Shown here: positions 24,269 to 62,235 of the stretch, piece by piece | Layout of the letters: each line of letters starts with the position of its first letter | How positions within the stretch are numbered: position 1 is the stretch's first letter | Source of the DNA: Candidatus Microbacterium phytovorans | GTDB lineage: Bacteria > Actinomycetota > Actinomycetes > Actinomycetales > Microbacteriaceae | Length of the DNA stretch: 64,000 nt | Assembly: GCA_029202445.1 (NCBI GenBank) | Contig: CP119321.1 | Coordinates: 1,612,001 to 1,676,000, forward strand | Direction: 5' to 3' | The notes under the pieces: model-generated | The model's database searches: none | Seen by the model: only the letters and a program-made list of their open reading frames with translations | Told to the model about the DNA's origin: nothing | Translations under genes and position numbers: made by a program

Positions 24269-25393
<1,125 letters not shown>

Positions 25394-25457: not shown

Positions 25458-26357
25458 TCAACGCCACGCACCGAGCTTGTCGGGATTGCGCATCATCCAG
25501 ATGTCGGTCACGCGCGCCCCATCGGTGGCGAACGAGACGACCGCGGCGACGGCAGCGTCCAGCCGGATCAGGATGCCGTCGCCGTCGCCGTGCACGACGG
25601 GCTCGTACGTGGCCTCCGGCTGCTTCCGCGCGAGGCCGAGAAGGAATCGGGCGACATCGTCCGAGCCGCGGACCGGACGCCGCGCGGCGGAGACCCGGCC
25701 TCCCCCGTCGGAGCGCAGCACCACGTCGGGGTCGAGGACGGCGACCAGCGCCTCGAGGCGGCCGGACCCCGCGGCATCCGCAAAGGCGCGCACGAGGGCG
25801 GAATGGCGGTCGCGTGACACCCCGACGCCGGGCCGCGATCCCACATGGCGACGGGCCGACGCGGCCAACTGACGGCACGCCGCCGGCGTCCGGCCGACGA
25901 CGTCGGCGATCTCGGTGAACGACACCGCGAAGACGTCGTGGAGCACGAACGCGACCCGCTCGGCGGGCGTCAGTGTCTCCAGCACGAGGAGGAGCGCGGT
26001 CGAGACGCTGTCCGCCCGTTCGACACGCTCCGCAGGGTCATCGTCCGCGGCATCCGCGTGCACCGGGAGGGGTTCCGGGAGCCACTCCCCCACATACAGC
26101 TCGCGTCTGCGCCGCGCGGAGCCCCACACGTCCAGGCACACGCGTCCCGTGACGCGGAGGAGCCAGGCGCCCGGAGCACGGACGGCGCCGCGTTCCTCAT
26201 CGCTGAGGCGAAGCCATCGGGTGAAGGCCTCCTGGACGGCATCCTCGGCGTCGGCACGGGTGCCGAGCATCCGGTAGGCGGCGGCAAGGAGGCGCGGTCG
26301 CTCCGCCGCCAGCAGTCCGCCGCCGGCCAGTTCCGCTTCGCTCGTCGTCTCGTCCAC
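25458..26357 (-). CDS. ECF41-type RNA polymerase sigma factor (SigJ-like) with SnoaL C-terminal domain
   Basis: A 299-residue extracytoplasmic-function sigma factor. Region 2 (residues 15-85) includes LLAAAYRMLGTRADAEDAVQEAFTRWL, and region 4 (130-185) includes LLLVLETLTPAERVAFVLHDVF and FTEIADVVGRTPAACRQLA. The C-terminal SnoaL-like domain (from about 195) replaces an anti-sigma factor. The ECF41 hallmark motifs are all present: WLPEPLP in the linker, DGGGR in the SnoaL domain and NPDKLG at the end. In this group the C-terminal domain regulates activity and the target is the adjacent oxidoreductase-type gene (established). The divergent gene at 26447 fits. The GTG start at 26357 follows a GA-rich ribosome site. 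Confidence 0.93.
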   Translation of the reverse strand: MDETTSEAELAGGGLLAAERPRLLAAAYRMLGTRADAEDAVQEAFTRWLRLSDEERGAVRAPGAWLLRVTGRVCLDVWGSARRRRELYVGEWLPEPLPVHADAADDDPAERVERADSVSTALLLVLETLTPAERVAFVLHDVFAVSFTEIADVVGRTPAACRQLAASARRHVGSRPGVGVSRDRHSALVRAFADAAGSGRLEALVAVLDPDVVLRSDGGGRVSAARRPVRGSDDVARFLLGLARKQPEATYEPVVHGDGDGILIRLDAAVAAVVSFATDGARVTDIWMMRNPDKLGAWR

Positions 26358-26388
26358 ACCCCGCCCTCTCGTGCGCGCCGACGCGTCA

Positions 26389-26415
26389 CCTCACATTCTG
26401 CGCGGCTGCGTCGTC
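26389..26415 (+). promoter_or_regulatory. candidate ECF41 target promoter
   Basis: CCTCACA (26389-26395) and CGTC (26412-26415) are separated by exactly 16 bases. This matches the published ECF41 pattern (TGTCACA - N16 - CGTC) in five of seven -35 positions and the full -10. It lies 31 bases before the start of the divergent oxidoreductase gene. Confidence 0.6.
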
Positions 26416-26446
26416 GTTACATTGACCGATCGAGGAAGGGAACACC

Positions 26447-27196
26447 ATGAGGATCGCCGTCATCGGAGGAACAGGCACCGTCGGGAGGGAGGTCGTCGCC
26501 GCCGCACACGCCCGCGGGCACGACGCCGTCGTCCTGGCGCGCTCGACGGGCGTCGACGTGCTGCAGCCGCCCCGAGCGGGTCTCGCCGCCGCCCTCGCCG
26601 GCGCCGACGTCGCGATCGACGTCGCCAGCGTCGGGACGATGAGCGCGGAAGAGTCGGTCGCGTTCTTCCAACAGGCGTCGCGGAACCTCCTCACGGCCGC
26701 CGCCGAGACCGGCATCCGCCATATCGTCGTCCTGTCCATCGTGGGGATCGACCGCAACCCGCACGGCTATTACGCCGGGAAGGTCGCCCAGGAGGCGGAA
26801 TACGCGGCGGGCACGGTGCCGTCCACGATCCTGCGCGCCACCCAGTTCCACGAGTTCGCGCAGCAGGTCGCCGCGCAGGCGAAGCTCGGACCCCTGCAGA
26901 TCGCCCCGCGCGCCCGCGTGCAGCCGATTGCGGCGTCGGCCGTGGCCGAGAGACTCGTGGCCCTCGCGGAAGGTGCTCCCGCGGGGCGCGCCGACGACAT
27001 CGCCGGCCCCCACGAGGAGGCGCTGTCGGACATGGTCCGCGCGTGGGTGCGACACGAGGGCCGTCGGGGACCGGTGCTGCCGATGAGCCTCCCCGGACCG
27101 CAGATGCGCGGAATGCGGCAGGGATTCGCGCTACCGGGGCCGGAGGCGCAGCTGCTCGGCCCGAGCTTCATCGAATGGCTCGCCGAGCGAAGCTGA
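26447..27196 (+). CDS. NAD(P)-binding NmrA/SDR-like oxidoreductase, ECF41 target
   Basis: A 249-residue Rossmann-fold protein. The dinucleotide site is MRIAVIGGTGTVGREVV. The atypical-SDR pattern continues with DVAIDVASVG, HIVVLSIVGIDRNPHGYYAGKVAQE and the substrate-loop ILRATQFHEFAQQV. The central YYAGK matches the Tyr-x-x-x-Lys pair of related proteins. Its place, divergent from an ECF41 sigma gene and behind a matching promoter, fits the usual ECF41 partner class (carboxymuconolactone decarboxylase, oxidoreductase or epimerase). The substrate is unknown. ATG at 26447 has a strong GAGGAAGGGA ribosome site. Confidence 0.87.
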   Translation: MRIAVIGGTGTVGREVVAAAHARGHDAVVLARSTGVDVLQPPRAGLAAALAGADVAIDVASVGTMSAEESVAFFQQASRNLLTAAAETGIRHIVVLSIVGIDRNPHGYYAGKVAQEAEYAAGTVPSTILRATQFHEFAQQVAAQAKLGPLQIAPRARVQPIAASAVAERLVALAEGAPAGRADDIAGPHEEALSDMVRAWVRHEGRRGPVLPMSLPGPQMRGMRQGFALPGPEAQLLGPSFIEWLAERS

Positions 27197-27202
27197 AGCT
27201 GC

Positions 27203-27375
27203 GTTTCGTCTCGCTGCGCTCGCTCAACGACCGGGTAAAGGGCCCGCCTCACCCCGGTCGTTGAGCGAGGAGCGCAGCGACGAGACGAACGGCGATCGCG
27301 TTTCGTCTCGCTGCGCTCGCTCAACGACCGGAAAGCGCTCGCTCAACGACCGGAAAGCGCTCGCTCAACGACCGG
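27203..27375. repeat. dispersed Microbacteriaceae-type repeat, multi-copy, inverted and tandem
   Basis: A unit of about 32 bases (27203-27234; core CGCTCAACGACCGG) is followed by an inverted copy at 27254-27290 with two single-base insertions. A second direct copy lies at 27300-27331. Two truncated tandem copies follow, ending near 27374. The first two units can form a long hairpin between the convergent oxidoreductase gene and lysC, so it may act as a terminator. The same unit recurs at 62101-62235. Confidence 0.75.
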
Positions 27376-27407
27376 GAAGCGGGCGCGACGACCGGGTAAA
27401 GAGCGGA

Positions 27408-28694
27408 TCAGCGCCCGGTGCCGGCGTAGACGACCGCTTCCGCGTCGCCGTCGAGACCGTAGGCGGTGTGCACGATGCGCGCAGCGTCGGCCAGTTCGTC
27501 GCCGCGGACGACGACCGAGATGCGGATCTCGGACGTGGAGATCATCTCGATGTTCACGCCCGCCGTCGACAGCGCCTCGAAGAGGGTCGCCGAGACGCCG
27601 CTGTGGGCGCGCATCCCTGCACCGACGACCGACAGCTTCCCGATCTGATCGTCGTGGACGAGGCTCTCGAAACCGACGCCCTGCTGCTCTGCCGCGAGCG
27701 CCCGCAGCGCCGCCGAGGCATCCGCCTTGGGGAGCGTGAAGGAGATGTCGGTGCGTCCGGTGGCGGCCGCCGAGACGTTCTGCACGATCATGTCGACGTT
27801 CGCCCCGCTGCGCGCGACGATCTTGAAGATCTCCGCGGCCTTGCCGGGAACGTCGGGAACCCCGATGACCGTGATCTTCGCCTGGCTGAGGTCGGTCGCG
27901 ACTCCCGCGACGATCGGCTCTTCCACTTCAACCCCTTCTACGCCCTCGGGAATGCTCATCCCGGGTCCGAGCACGAACGTGCCGACCCCCGAGCTGAACG
28001 TCGAGCGGGCATGGATCATGACGCCGTGGCGGCGAGCGTACTCCACCGCACGGATGTACAGGACTTTGGCACCGTTGGCGGCGAGCTCGAGCATCTCTTC
28101 GGCACCGATCGTGCCGAGCTTGCGCGCCTTGGGCACGACGCGCGGATCGGCCGTGAAGATGCCGTCGACGTCGCTGTAGATCTCGCACACGTCGGCGTCG
28201 AGCGCGGCGGCGAGAGCCACGGCGGTCGTATCGGAACCGCCCCGCCCGAGTGTCGTGATGTCGCGGGTGTCGCGGTTGAAGCCCTGGAAGCCCGCGACGA
28301 TGACGATCGCCCCCTCGTCGAGCGCTTCCCGCACGCGCACGGGAGTGACGTCGACGATGCGGGCGGCACCGTGGTGGGCCGTGGTGATCATGCCCGCCTG
28401 GCTGCCGGTGAGCGACCGGGCTTCGAACCCCATGGAGTGGATCGCCATCGCGAGGAGGGCCATCGAGATGCGTTCACCCGAGGAGAGAAGCATGTCGAGC
28501 TCTCGCGGCGCGGGGATCGGCGCGACGGCGTGCGCGAGATCGAGGAGTTCGTCGGTCGTGTCGCCCATCGCGCTGACGGCGACGACAACATCGTGACCCG
28601 CGCGGCGGGCGTCGACGATCCGCTTCGCGACGCGCTTGATGCTCTCGGCGTCGGCGACCGACGATCCGCCGTACTTCTGGACGATCAGCGCCAC
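27408..28694 (-). CDS. lysC: aspartate kinase
   Basis: It phosphorylates L-aspartate in the first step toward lysine, threonine and methionine. The 428 residues have the kinase N-terminus [15 protein letters not shown], the [15 protein letters not shown] and [16 protein letters not shown] blocks, [11 protein letters not shown], and two ACT domains in the C-terminal third ([19 protein letters not shown] and [23 protein letters not shown]), the allosteric Lys/Thr sensor region. The GTG at 28694 follows GGGAG. TAAGAT (28760-28765) is a likely -10, giving a leader of about 58 bases that contains a GC-rich hairpin (28725-28751). Related aspartate kinases make an internal beta subunit from within the gene; that is not verified here. 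Confidence 0.96.
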
Positions 28695-28759
28695 TGCACA
28701 ACTCCCGGGAAACCTCCGGCCGTAGGGGCCGGGCGGGCCGGAACCGGCCCCGACGTCCC

Positions 28760-28765
28760 ATCTTA
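28760..28765 (-). promoter_or_regulatory. -10 box of lysC promoter and hairpin-bearing leader
   Basis: Minus-strand TAAGAT lies 65 bases before the lysC start. The leader contains a stem of GGGGCCGG (28725-28732) with CCGGCCCC (28744-28751). No T-box or lysine-riboswitch consensus is recognisable. Confidence 0.45.
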
Positions 28766-28814
28766 GAAGGGGTCGGATGCCACGACGGCCATGTGACGGA
28801 CGGCCCCGAACGCG

Positions 28815-28820
28815 TAGCGT
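28815..28820 (+). promoter_or_regulatory. -10 box of leaderless promoter for small acidic protein
   Basis: TAGCGT ends seven bases before the ATG at 28828. No Shine-Dalgarno sequence is present. Confidence 0.5.
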
Positions 28821-28827
28821 GTAACGC

Positions 28828-29244
28828 ATGAGCGCTCACACCGACGCGATCTGGGAACGTGCCCTCGACCTCGCCTCTCCCACCGATGCCACCCACCCCG
28901 GTGACGCCGCCCTCTTGACGGTGCTCACGTTCCACGGGCTCGTCCACAACGGCGGGCTGCTGAACGCCGTCGAACTGCACGCGCACGACGAGGTGTACAC
29001 GAGCGACGCCGTCGTCGATGCCTACCGCTTCCTCGGTCTCGAAGACGCGGCCGCGGCGATCGACAACGCGGTGCTGGAGGAGCGCGACCTCGTCACCGGT
29101 GACGACGACGATGACGACGACGACGACTTCTCCGACGCGGCCGAACGCATCGATGCGACCTATACCCTCACCGACGAGGACATCGACGCGGCACTGCAGG
29201 TCGCGTTCGCGAACGATCCCGAAGCCTTCGCACCGCTCGACTGA
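28828..29244 (+). CDS. small acidic protein, DMP19/DUF4375-like
   Basis: A 138-residue soluble acidic protein. The segment [26 protein letters not shown] resembles the conserved 'HNGG' core of the DMP19-like (DUF4375) family, DNA-mimic-type acidic proteins. The middle carries nine consecutive Asp residues (after VTG, 29101-29127), which would make a flexible strongly acidic linker or metal-binding patch. The rest is helical ([19 protein letters not shown]). There is no close operon partner: lysC is divergent and EamA convergent. Family assignment is tentative and the function unknown. Confidence 0.72.
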
Positions 29245-62100: not shown

Positions 62101-62235
62101 GGTCGTCGAGCGGGCGCAGCCGCGGTCGTTGAGCGGGCGCAGCGAGACGAAGCGCCACACGCCGCCCGGTCGTTGAGCGAGCGCAGCGAGACGAAACGGC
62201 GCCCGGTCGTTGAGTGAGCGCAGCGAGACGAAACG
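62101..62235. repeat. four direct copies of the dispersed repeat
   Basis: One partial unit (62101-62120) and three near-full units (62123-62154, 62167-62198, 62203-62235) all point the same way. The core is CCGGTCGTTGAGCG, ending in AGACGAAACG, with single-base differences. The same unit occurs at 27203-27375. It fills most of the 290-base gap between the small membrane protein and the HNH gene; nothing else is seen there. Confidence 0.8.

Follow-up and report, generated by a model that had tools for sequence, protein, structure and literature searches.

An ECF41-type sigma factor and a variant promoter before its divergent oxidoreductase gene in Candidatus Microbacterium phytovorans

In a 64-kb stretch of the Candidatus Microbacterium phytovorans genome (hereafter the window; C1:1612001-1676000 of a genome of one contig, 3,032,576 bases), an ECF41-type sigma factor gene lies divergently beside an oxidoreductase gene, and the site at 26389-26415 between them carries a promoter form that recurs throughout the sigma factor's clade. 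On comparative sequence evidence, we are confident that an ECF41-type one-component switch drives the neighbouring reductase gene from this site, with the -35 word of the clade most likely set through sigma residue 167; the sigma factor very probably turns on the adjoining oxidoreductase gene. In the proposed mechanism, its own C-terminal SnoaL_2 domain would keep sigma activity low, and a small ligand or a redox change would relax it. The holoenzyme would then bind CCTCACA via sigma4 and CGTC via sigma2, transcription would begin near G26424, and an NAD(P)H-dependent reductase would be made. Serine at residue 167, in place of the guanine-bonding arginine of SigW and sigma-E, would lead to the reading of (C/G)CTCACA. 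Auto-inhibition by the extension was shown by truncation in Ecf41Bli and Ecf41Rsp (Bacillus licheniformis and Rhodobacter sphaeroides).

The sigma factor gene (25458-26357, minus strand) starts with GTG and encodes 299 aa. The Sigma70_r2, Sigma70_r4_2 and SnoaL_2 domains each exceeded the Pfam cut-off, and the NCBIfam SigJ model NF007214 was passed with 309.9 bits (cut-off 271). The motifs WLPEP, DGGGR and NPDKL were located at residues 92, 217 and 291, respectively; the last is a conserved motif of the ECF41 extension (sections of PMC7730460). In all 34 aligned rows, W92 to P96 in the linker between sigma2 and sigma4 were invariant, as were D217-G220, N291, P292, K294 and L295 of the extension, while the fifth residue of DGGGR varied among relatives. 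The structure model (mean pLDDT 86.3) had SigJ of Mycobacterium tuberculosis (5xe7) as its best Foldseek match, with TM scores of 0.73/0.77; SigJ was also the best PDB match by sequence (34-35% identity), and in the alignment it has Arg where the window's sigma factor has Ser167. Pfam, the model and the fold all gave sigma2 and sigma4 followed by a SnoaL-like C-terminal extension of about 100 aa, and the gene adjoins asd and a COE gene with no anti-sigma neighbour. By these protein features the factor is an ordinary ECF41 member; the original prediction of an ECF41 factor with the three motifs and a SnoaL domain held. SigG1/ECF56 of Streptomyces tsukubaensis (7qh5) likewise joins a sigma core to a SnoaL_2 extension, but in it NPDKL is missing and there is a partner, RsfG (sections of PMC7730460). 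Further candidates for ECF41 factors in the genome were weaker matches (E 6e-9 and 2e-4) and were taken as other ECF factors.

The divergent gene (26447-27196, plus strand), the likely target, encodes a 249-aa NAD(P)-binding atypical SDR of the NmrA/epimerase type and is preceded by a likely ribosome-binding site, AGGAAGG (26433-26439, plus strand). NAD_binding_10 exceeded its Pfam cut-off, as did Epimerase (22.3 vs 20.9), and NmrA fell below (23.3 vs 27). Residues G7, T9, G10, G13, Y108 and K112 were invariant in all 25 aligned sequences. Among solved folds, the model (mean pLDDT 94.2) came closest to KstA11, SimC7 and sugar epimerases; doxorubicin-bound SwaQ2 and the quinone oxidoreductase QOR2 took ranks 15 and 16. 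Under the scheme of Wecke et al., as set out in the sections of PMC3426412 used here, the protein is classed as an epimerase-type COE.

The promoter site lies on the plus strand and consists of the -35 element CCTCACA (26389-26395), a 16-nt spacer (26396-26411) and the -10 element CGTC (26412-26415), exactly as originally predicted. In a matrix of 95 relatives' sites, which had been selected for CGTC, the conserved parts of the spacer were TTC, which follows the -35, and GCTGCGT, which precedes the -10. The distance from CGTC to the ATG of the oxidoreductase gene is 31 nt. For ydfG and RSP_0606, Table 5 of PMC3426412 lists 31 and 32, and its text reports that transcription begins at a mapped G and that 22/23 bp are untranslated. 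If the listed distances are counted from the -10, the 31 nt found here would by analogy place the predicted transcription start at G26424, with a 23-nt leader. A simple consensus scan of 26300-26500 found neither a sigma-70-type promoter nor a terminator.

The ECF41 promoters of Wecke et al. are likewise bipartite with a 16-nt spacer and CGTC, and the Ecf41 factors of B. licheniformis and R. sphaeroides share the sigma2-sigma4 core with a C-terminal extension, the WLPEP linker and the adjoining COE (sections of PMC3426412). The gene order <ECF< >COE> is common to the window and to 55 loci (15%) in Table 4 of that report. Unlike the ECF41 systems described in those sections, the window has CCTCACA rather than TGTCACA as its -35 and no motif before its sigma gene. 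RpoE9 of Sinorhizobium meliloti resembles the window's factor in its CGTC -10 and in the single, COE-type target found, but differs in its TGTCACA -35 and in a target that lies upstream and is probably cotranscribed (sections of PMC6180224). The window -35 matches the published TGTCACA at 5/7 bases, and no exact canonical TGTCACA-N15-17-CGTC occurs in the 64-kb window. With a spacer within 16 ± 1 nt and a CGTC -10 but a different -35, the site is filed as a variant ECF41 promoter rather than a canonical one. The original description of the site as close to the published promoter therefore has to be corrected: the spacer and CGTC agree, but the -35 belongs to a distinct, clade-wide form. Compared with its relatives, the window promoter is a good copy of (C/G)CTCACA-N16-CGTC and not an approximate copy of TGTCACA.

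The site is conserved among relatives with the same divergent gene pair. Of 37 such loci (L004-L039 and L042), 32 carried xxTCACA-N15-17-CGTC aimed at the oxidoreductase gene, and the other five (L015, L028, L031, L032 and L035) had CCTCACG with the same -10. Two loci, L034 and L036, seem to be repeats of L011 and L014, and the counts without them are 30/35 and 5/35; L041, L053 and L071 (not divergent) and L067 (34% identity) were excluded. The 95-site matrix, built from distinct sites of the sigma clade's relatives with the window left out, scored the window site at 36.9 and the runner-up in the 64 kb at 8.4, the training sites themselves ranging from 7.5 to 37.5 (median 30.7). We also searched the 3.03-Mb genome for the bipartite motif, a check suggested with the original prediction, using the extended form CTCACATTC-N10-CGTCGTC. 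The results showed one exact occurrence, none with one mismatch, four with two and 50 with three, so that the window's copy is unique at 0-1 mismatches; the motif read backwards gave 18 sites at ≤3 mismatches. Conservation in relatives, the left-out matrix score and the uniqueness of the extended motif together argue that the window site is not due to chance. Across the genus, 51/198 genomes had the extended motif at ≤1 mismatch, with 78 sites against 8 in the backwards control (counted by hand from the table). All 25 exact sites fell in genomes with an ECF41 match, and eight one-mismatch sites fell in seven genomes without one. Isolated one-mismatch sites before unrelated-looking genes (e.g. 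L181 and L191) were taken by eye as chance.

The clade-wide form of the -35 became apparent from an alignment of 151 sigma sequences (150 different), from which a quick maximum-likelihood tree was built and clades were read from the printed tree; the repeats L034, L036 and L186 and the locus L185, which had no sigma match, were left out. The window's sigma factor fell in clade A (93 rows, SH-aLRT 99), and clade B comprised 58 rows. The loci of clade A contained 109 strict sites, 105 of them with a 16-nt spacer, whose first two -35 bases were CC in 68, GC in 22, CG in 4, CA, GG and AC in 3 each, and TG, TC and GA in 2 each; the second base was C in 95/109. In the 95-site matrix, base 1 was C in 69% and G in 24%, and base 2 was C in 89%. 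Clade B yielded 19 strict sites, with TG in 15 and CG, GG, AC and CC in one each. The strict pattern read backwards gave two sites in clade A and three in clade B. In 17/93 clade A and 45/58 clade B rows, the flanks of the sigma gene (350 bp upstream, 120 bp downstream) contained no site. The exceptions in clade A were TGTCACA in L056 and in the L211 locus, and CGTCACA or GGTCACA in L021, L031, L216, L055 and L067; in clade B, two sites had C at the second -35 base (L085 and L101). Two further apparent CTCACA cases in clade B (L109 and L198) disappeared once strict CGTC was required.

The two clades also part at sigma residue 167. In the window this is Ser167 (codon TCG, 25857-25859, minus strand), in the sigma4 recognition helix, and by analogy it is predicted to face -35 base 2. 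In clade A the residue was S in 58 rows, Q in 29, A in two and N, H, T or K in one each, and never R; in clade B it was R in 58/58. A by-eye alignment to L002, a canonical ECF factor encoded in this genome (AVRGRLSRAR), placed residue 167 in the register of SigW R175/sigma-E R176 and residue 162 in that of SigW K170/sigma-E R171. The former arginine hydrogen-bonds a guanine at -35 and the latter residue contacts the guanine opposite C-31 (sections of PMC6713349). The guanine contacted at -35 corresponds to base 2 of TGTCACA, which is C in the window's clade, and R162 of the sigma factor is invariant in both clades. S167 or H167 occurred despite G at base 2 in L056, L055, L067, L031/L216 and L021. 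Positions 140, 147 and 170 likewise separated the clades strongly, and many other residues differed too. Judged from these alignments, the clade most likely reads (C/G)CTCACA rather than TGTCACA because residue 167 is Ser (Gln in relatives) and not Arg. The broader proposal, that ECF41 factors in general use two dialects, TGTCACA and (C/G)CTCACA, switched by Arg versus Ser/Gln at 167, we hold at about even chances.

A later test set comprised 20 ECF41 loci on named plasmids; they were chosen for variety from the 60 of 428 records that were listed. Next to the sigma gene, 16/20 had a site, and 16/16 fitted the residue-167 rule. Eight of the ten S167 loci had a site, in every case CCTCACA, with CGTC as the -10 in five and TGTC alone in three; L259 and L260 share one same site, and L261 and L262 had none. 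Eight of the ten R167 loci had TGTCACA with CGTC (Sinorhizobium, Shinella, Neorhizobium, Paracoccus, Gemmobacter, Sphingobium and two Streptomyces), and one R167 locus, L277, had an additional CGTCACA site; L271 had no site and L276 just a poor GTTCACT match. The plasmid loci, which stand outside the tree, presumably belong to the same two clades, so they confirm the rule yet add no new evolutionary events. Since the dialects follow essentially one deep split, the link between residue 167 and the -35 base could reflect common descent. This clade-wide link, as seen in the alignments, is the new-looking part of the analysis: we found no report of the CCTCACA dialect in the literature searched, and the ECF reclassification (PMC7826278) may already list it. 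If the dialects are true, they would keep ECF41 paralogues apart within one cell, a single substitution could re-aim a factor, and a one-residue specificity switch would offer synthetic biology an orthogonal pair that is easy to build. Several Microbacterium genomes (G027, G129 and G160, among others) carry both kinds of ECF41 factor.

Within this genome, the results pointed to a narrow regulon. CTCACA-N16-CGTC occurred at five sites including the window's (two in the backwards control), and in 121,010 bases of loci around candidate matches (overlaps counted) the matrix runners-up scored 20.3 and 18.5 compared with 36.9. No DUF4345-like homologue was found in the genome at E 0.001, and visual inspection of 2000 of the 3414 bases at a carboxymuconolactone decarboxylase homologue (L236) showed no motif. 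One target in this genome, the oxidoreductase, is supported by sequence, in line with the one-oxidoreductase regulon originally predicted; in relatives, the regulon looks larger. There, motif sites are also found before a gene for a DUF4345-like membrane protein, whose Pfam match fell short of the cut-off; this gene was present in 19/198 genus genomes, all 19 with a close sigma relative (best 56-63% identity). Among 22 such loci, 16 had the motif upstream, four had a CATAC(A/G)T form instead and two had neither. Five of the 16 motif-bearing loci (L237, L238, L242, L246 and L254) were unlinked to the sigma gene, on a different contig or over 100 kb away. In 12/16, a distance of 8-12 nt separated the end of the -10 from the gene start extrapolated from the query, and the DUF4345-like mRNA may accordingly be leaderless. 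Motif sites also preceded carboxymuconolactone decarboxylase genes (L183 by Pfam; L185 and L186 by eye) and a DoxX_2 gene (L195). In G115 (L177), they lay before a cytochrome b gene and before a gene for a pyridine-nucleotide-disulphide oxidoreductase that looks, by eye, like NDH-2, which suggests that the regulon there has a respiratory branch.

These further likely targets, which include DUF4345-like genes, point to quinone or redox chemistry. They are exposed by the clade's own -35 word, whereas searches with TGTCACA miss most sites of the window's clade. The regulon enzymes, together with the extension's SnoaL/ketosteroid-isomerase-like fold, lead us to guess that the signal is quinone-like or aromatic. 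ECF41 factors are widespread one-component sigma switches, and no inducing condition for them was known to Wecke et al., according to the sections of PMC3426412 cited here. As a separate observation, the CATAC(A/G)T form stood where CTCACAT was expected before the DUF4345-like gene in four genomes (L243, L244, L245 and L247), with the same kind of -10; it is possibly a third dialect or the mark of another sigma factor.

The sigma-oxidoreductase module is flanked by asd (aspartate-semialdehyde dehydrogenase; 24269-25339, minus strand; Pfam) and, on the other side, by an ORF at 27408-28829 (minus strand) that we take, by eye and by synteny, to be a lysC-like aspartokinase. With the module in this position, asd lies 118 nt behind the sigma gene, and the oxidoreductase gene is read against both flanking genes. 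L004, L005, L006, L008 and L033 share this placement with the window; in L007, asd adjoins the module and the locus showed no lysC. The two flanking genes were separated by a gap of about 87-883 nt in 24 of the 29 genus genomes drawn, and the stretches examined from the other five (the window's own genome and G014, both of which have the module, and three others) showed no lysC. As the pair is adjacent in most of the genomes drawn, the module was most likely inserted once between lysC and asd, judging from gene order. A strict sigma-directed motif was absent in 7/7 members of the window's subclade, and a single motif copy is present in the window, as in each of its six nearest relatives. In clade A as a whole, 37/93 loci had a sigma-directed motif, 27 of them together with an opposite-direction copy. 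Identity within the subclade was 66-72% for the sigma factor and 60-67% for the oxidoreductase.

Four other explanations were weighed against the proposed mechanism, two of which concern the -35 word. Clade A factors might ignore the first two -35 bases, with CC and GC arising by drift after the loss of Arg167 and leaving a relaxed ECF41 promoter. Such relaxation would accommodate the CGTCACA, GGTCACA and TGTCACA sites of clade A and the variation at base 1, but C at base 2 in 89% of the 95 sites, in 95/109 clade A sites and in 8/8 S167 plasmid sites makes it unlikely. The dialect might instead be real and set by other sigma4 residues, e.g. 140, 147 and 170, with residue 167 a passenger of the clade split. 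We regard this as possible, if doubtful: these positions do separate the groups strongly and the split is essentially one event, whereas residue 167 lies in register with the Arg through which SigW and sigma-E contact the base, and it parts the 93 rows from the 58 with no exception.

It is very unlikely that the conserved block is an operator of another regulator that governs both divergent genes, with no sigma promoter present. Copies facing both ways in 27/93 clade A loci can make the region look palindromic, but only one copy is present in the window and in the six relatives nearest to it, the 16-nt spacer is kept in 105/109 sites, and the block recurs at DUF4345-like genes not linked to the sigma gene, 8-11 nt ahead of their aligned start. 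A silent module, barely expressed between lysC and asd, would agree with that location and with the missing sigma-directed motif in 7/7 subclade members; with both proteins and the promoter conserved in the subclade at the identities given above, we consider silence quite improbable.

Two minor observations were made in the course of this work. Eleven loci (L011, L013, L017, L018, L019, L022, L024, L029, L030, L219 and L224) had back-to-back ECF41-type promoters, one for each divergent gene, with the -35 starts a constant 6 nt apart, and polymerases on such promoters may exclude each other. In the window, REP-like repeats with the core CGTCTCGCTGCGCTCGCTCAACGACC were clustered in direct and inverted orientation at 27201-27400 and 62124-62230; the core had five window copies at ≤3 mismatches (0.00 expected), and a similar stretch was present in L126 of the same genome.
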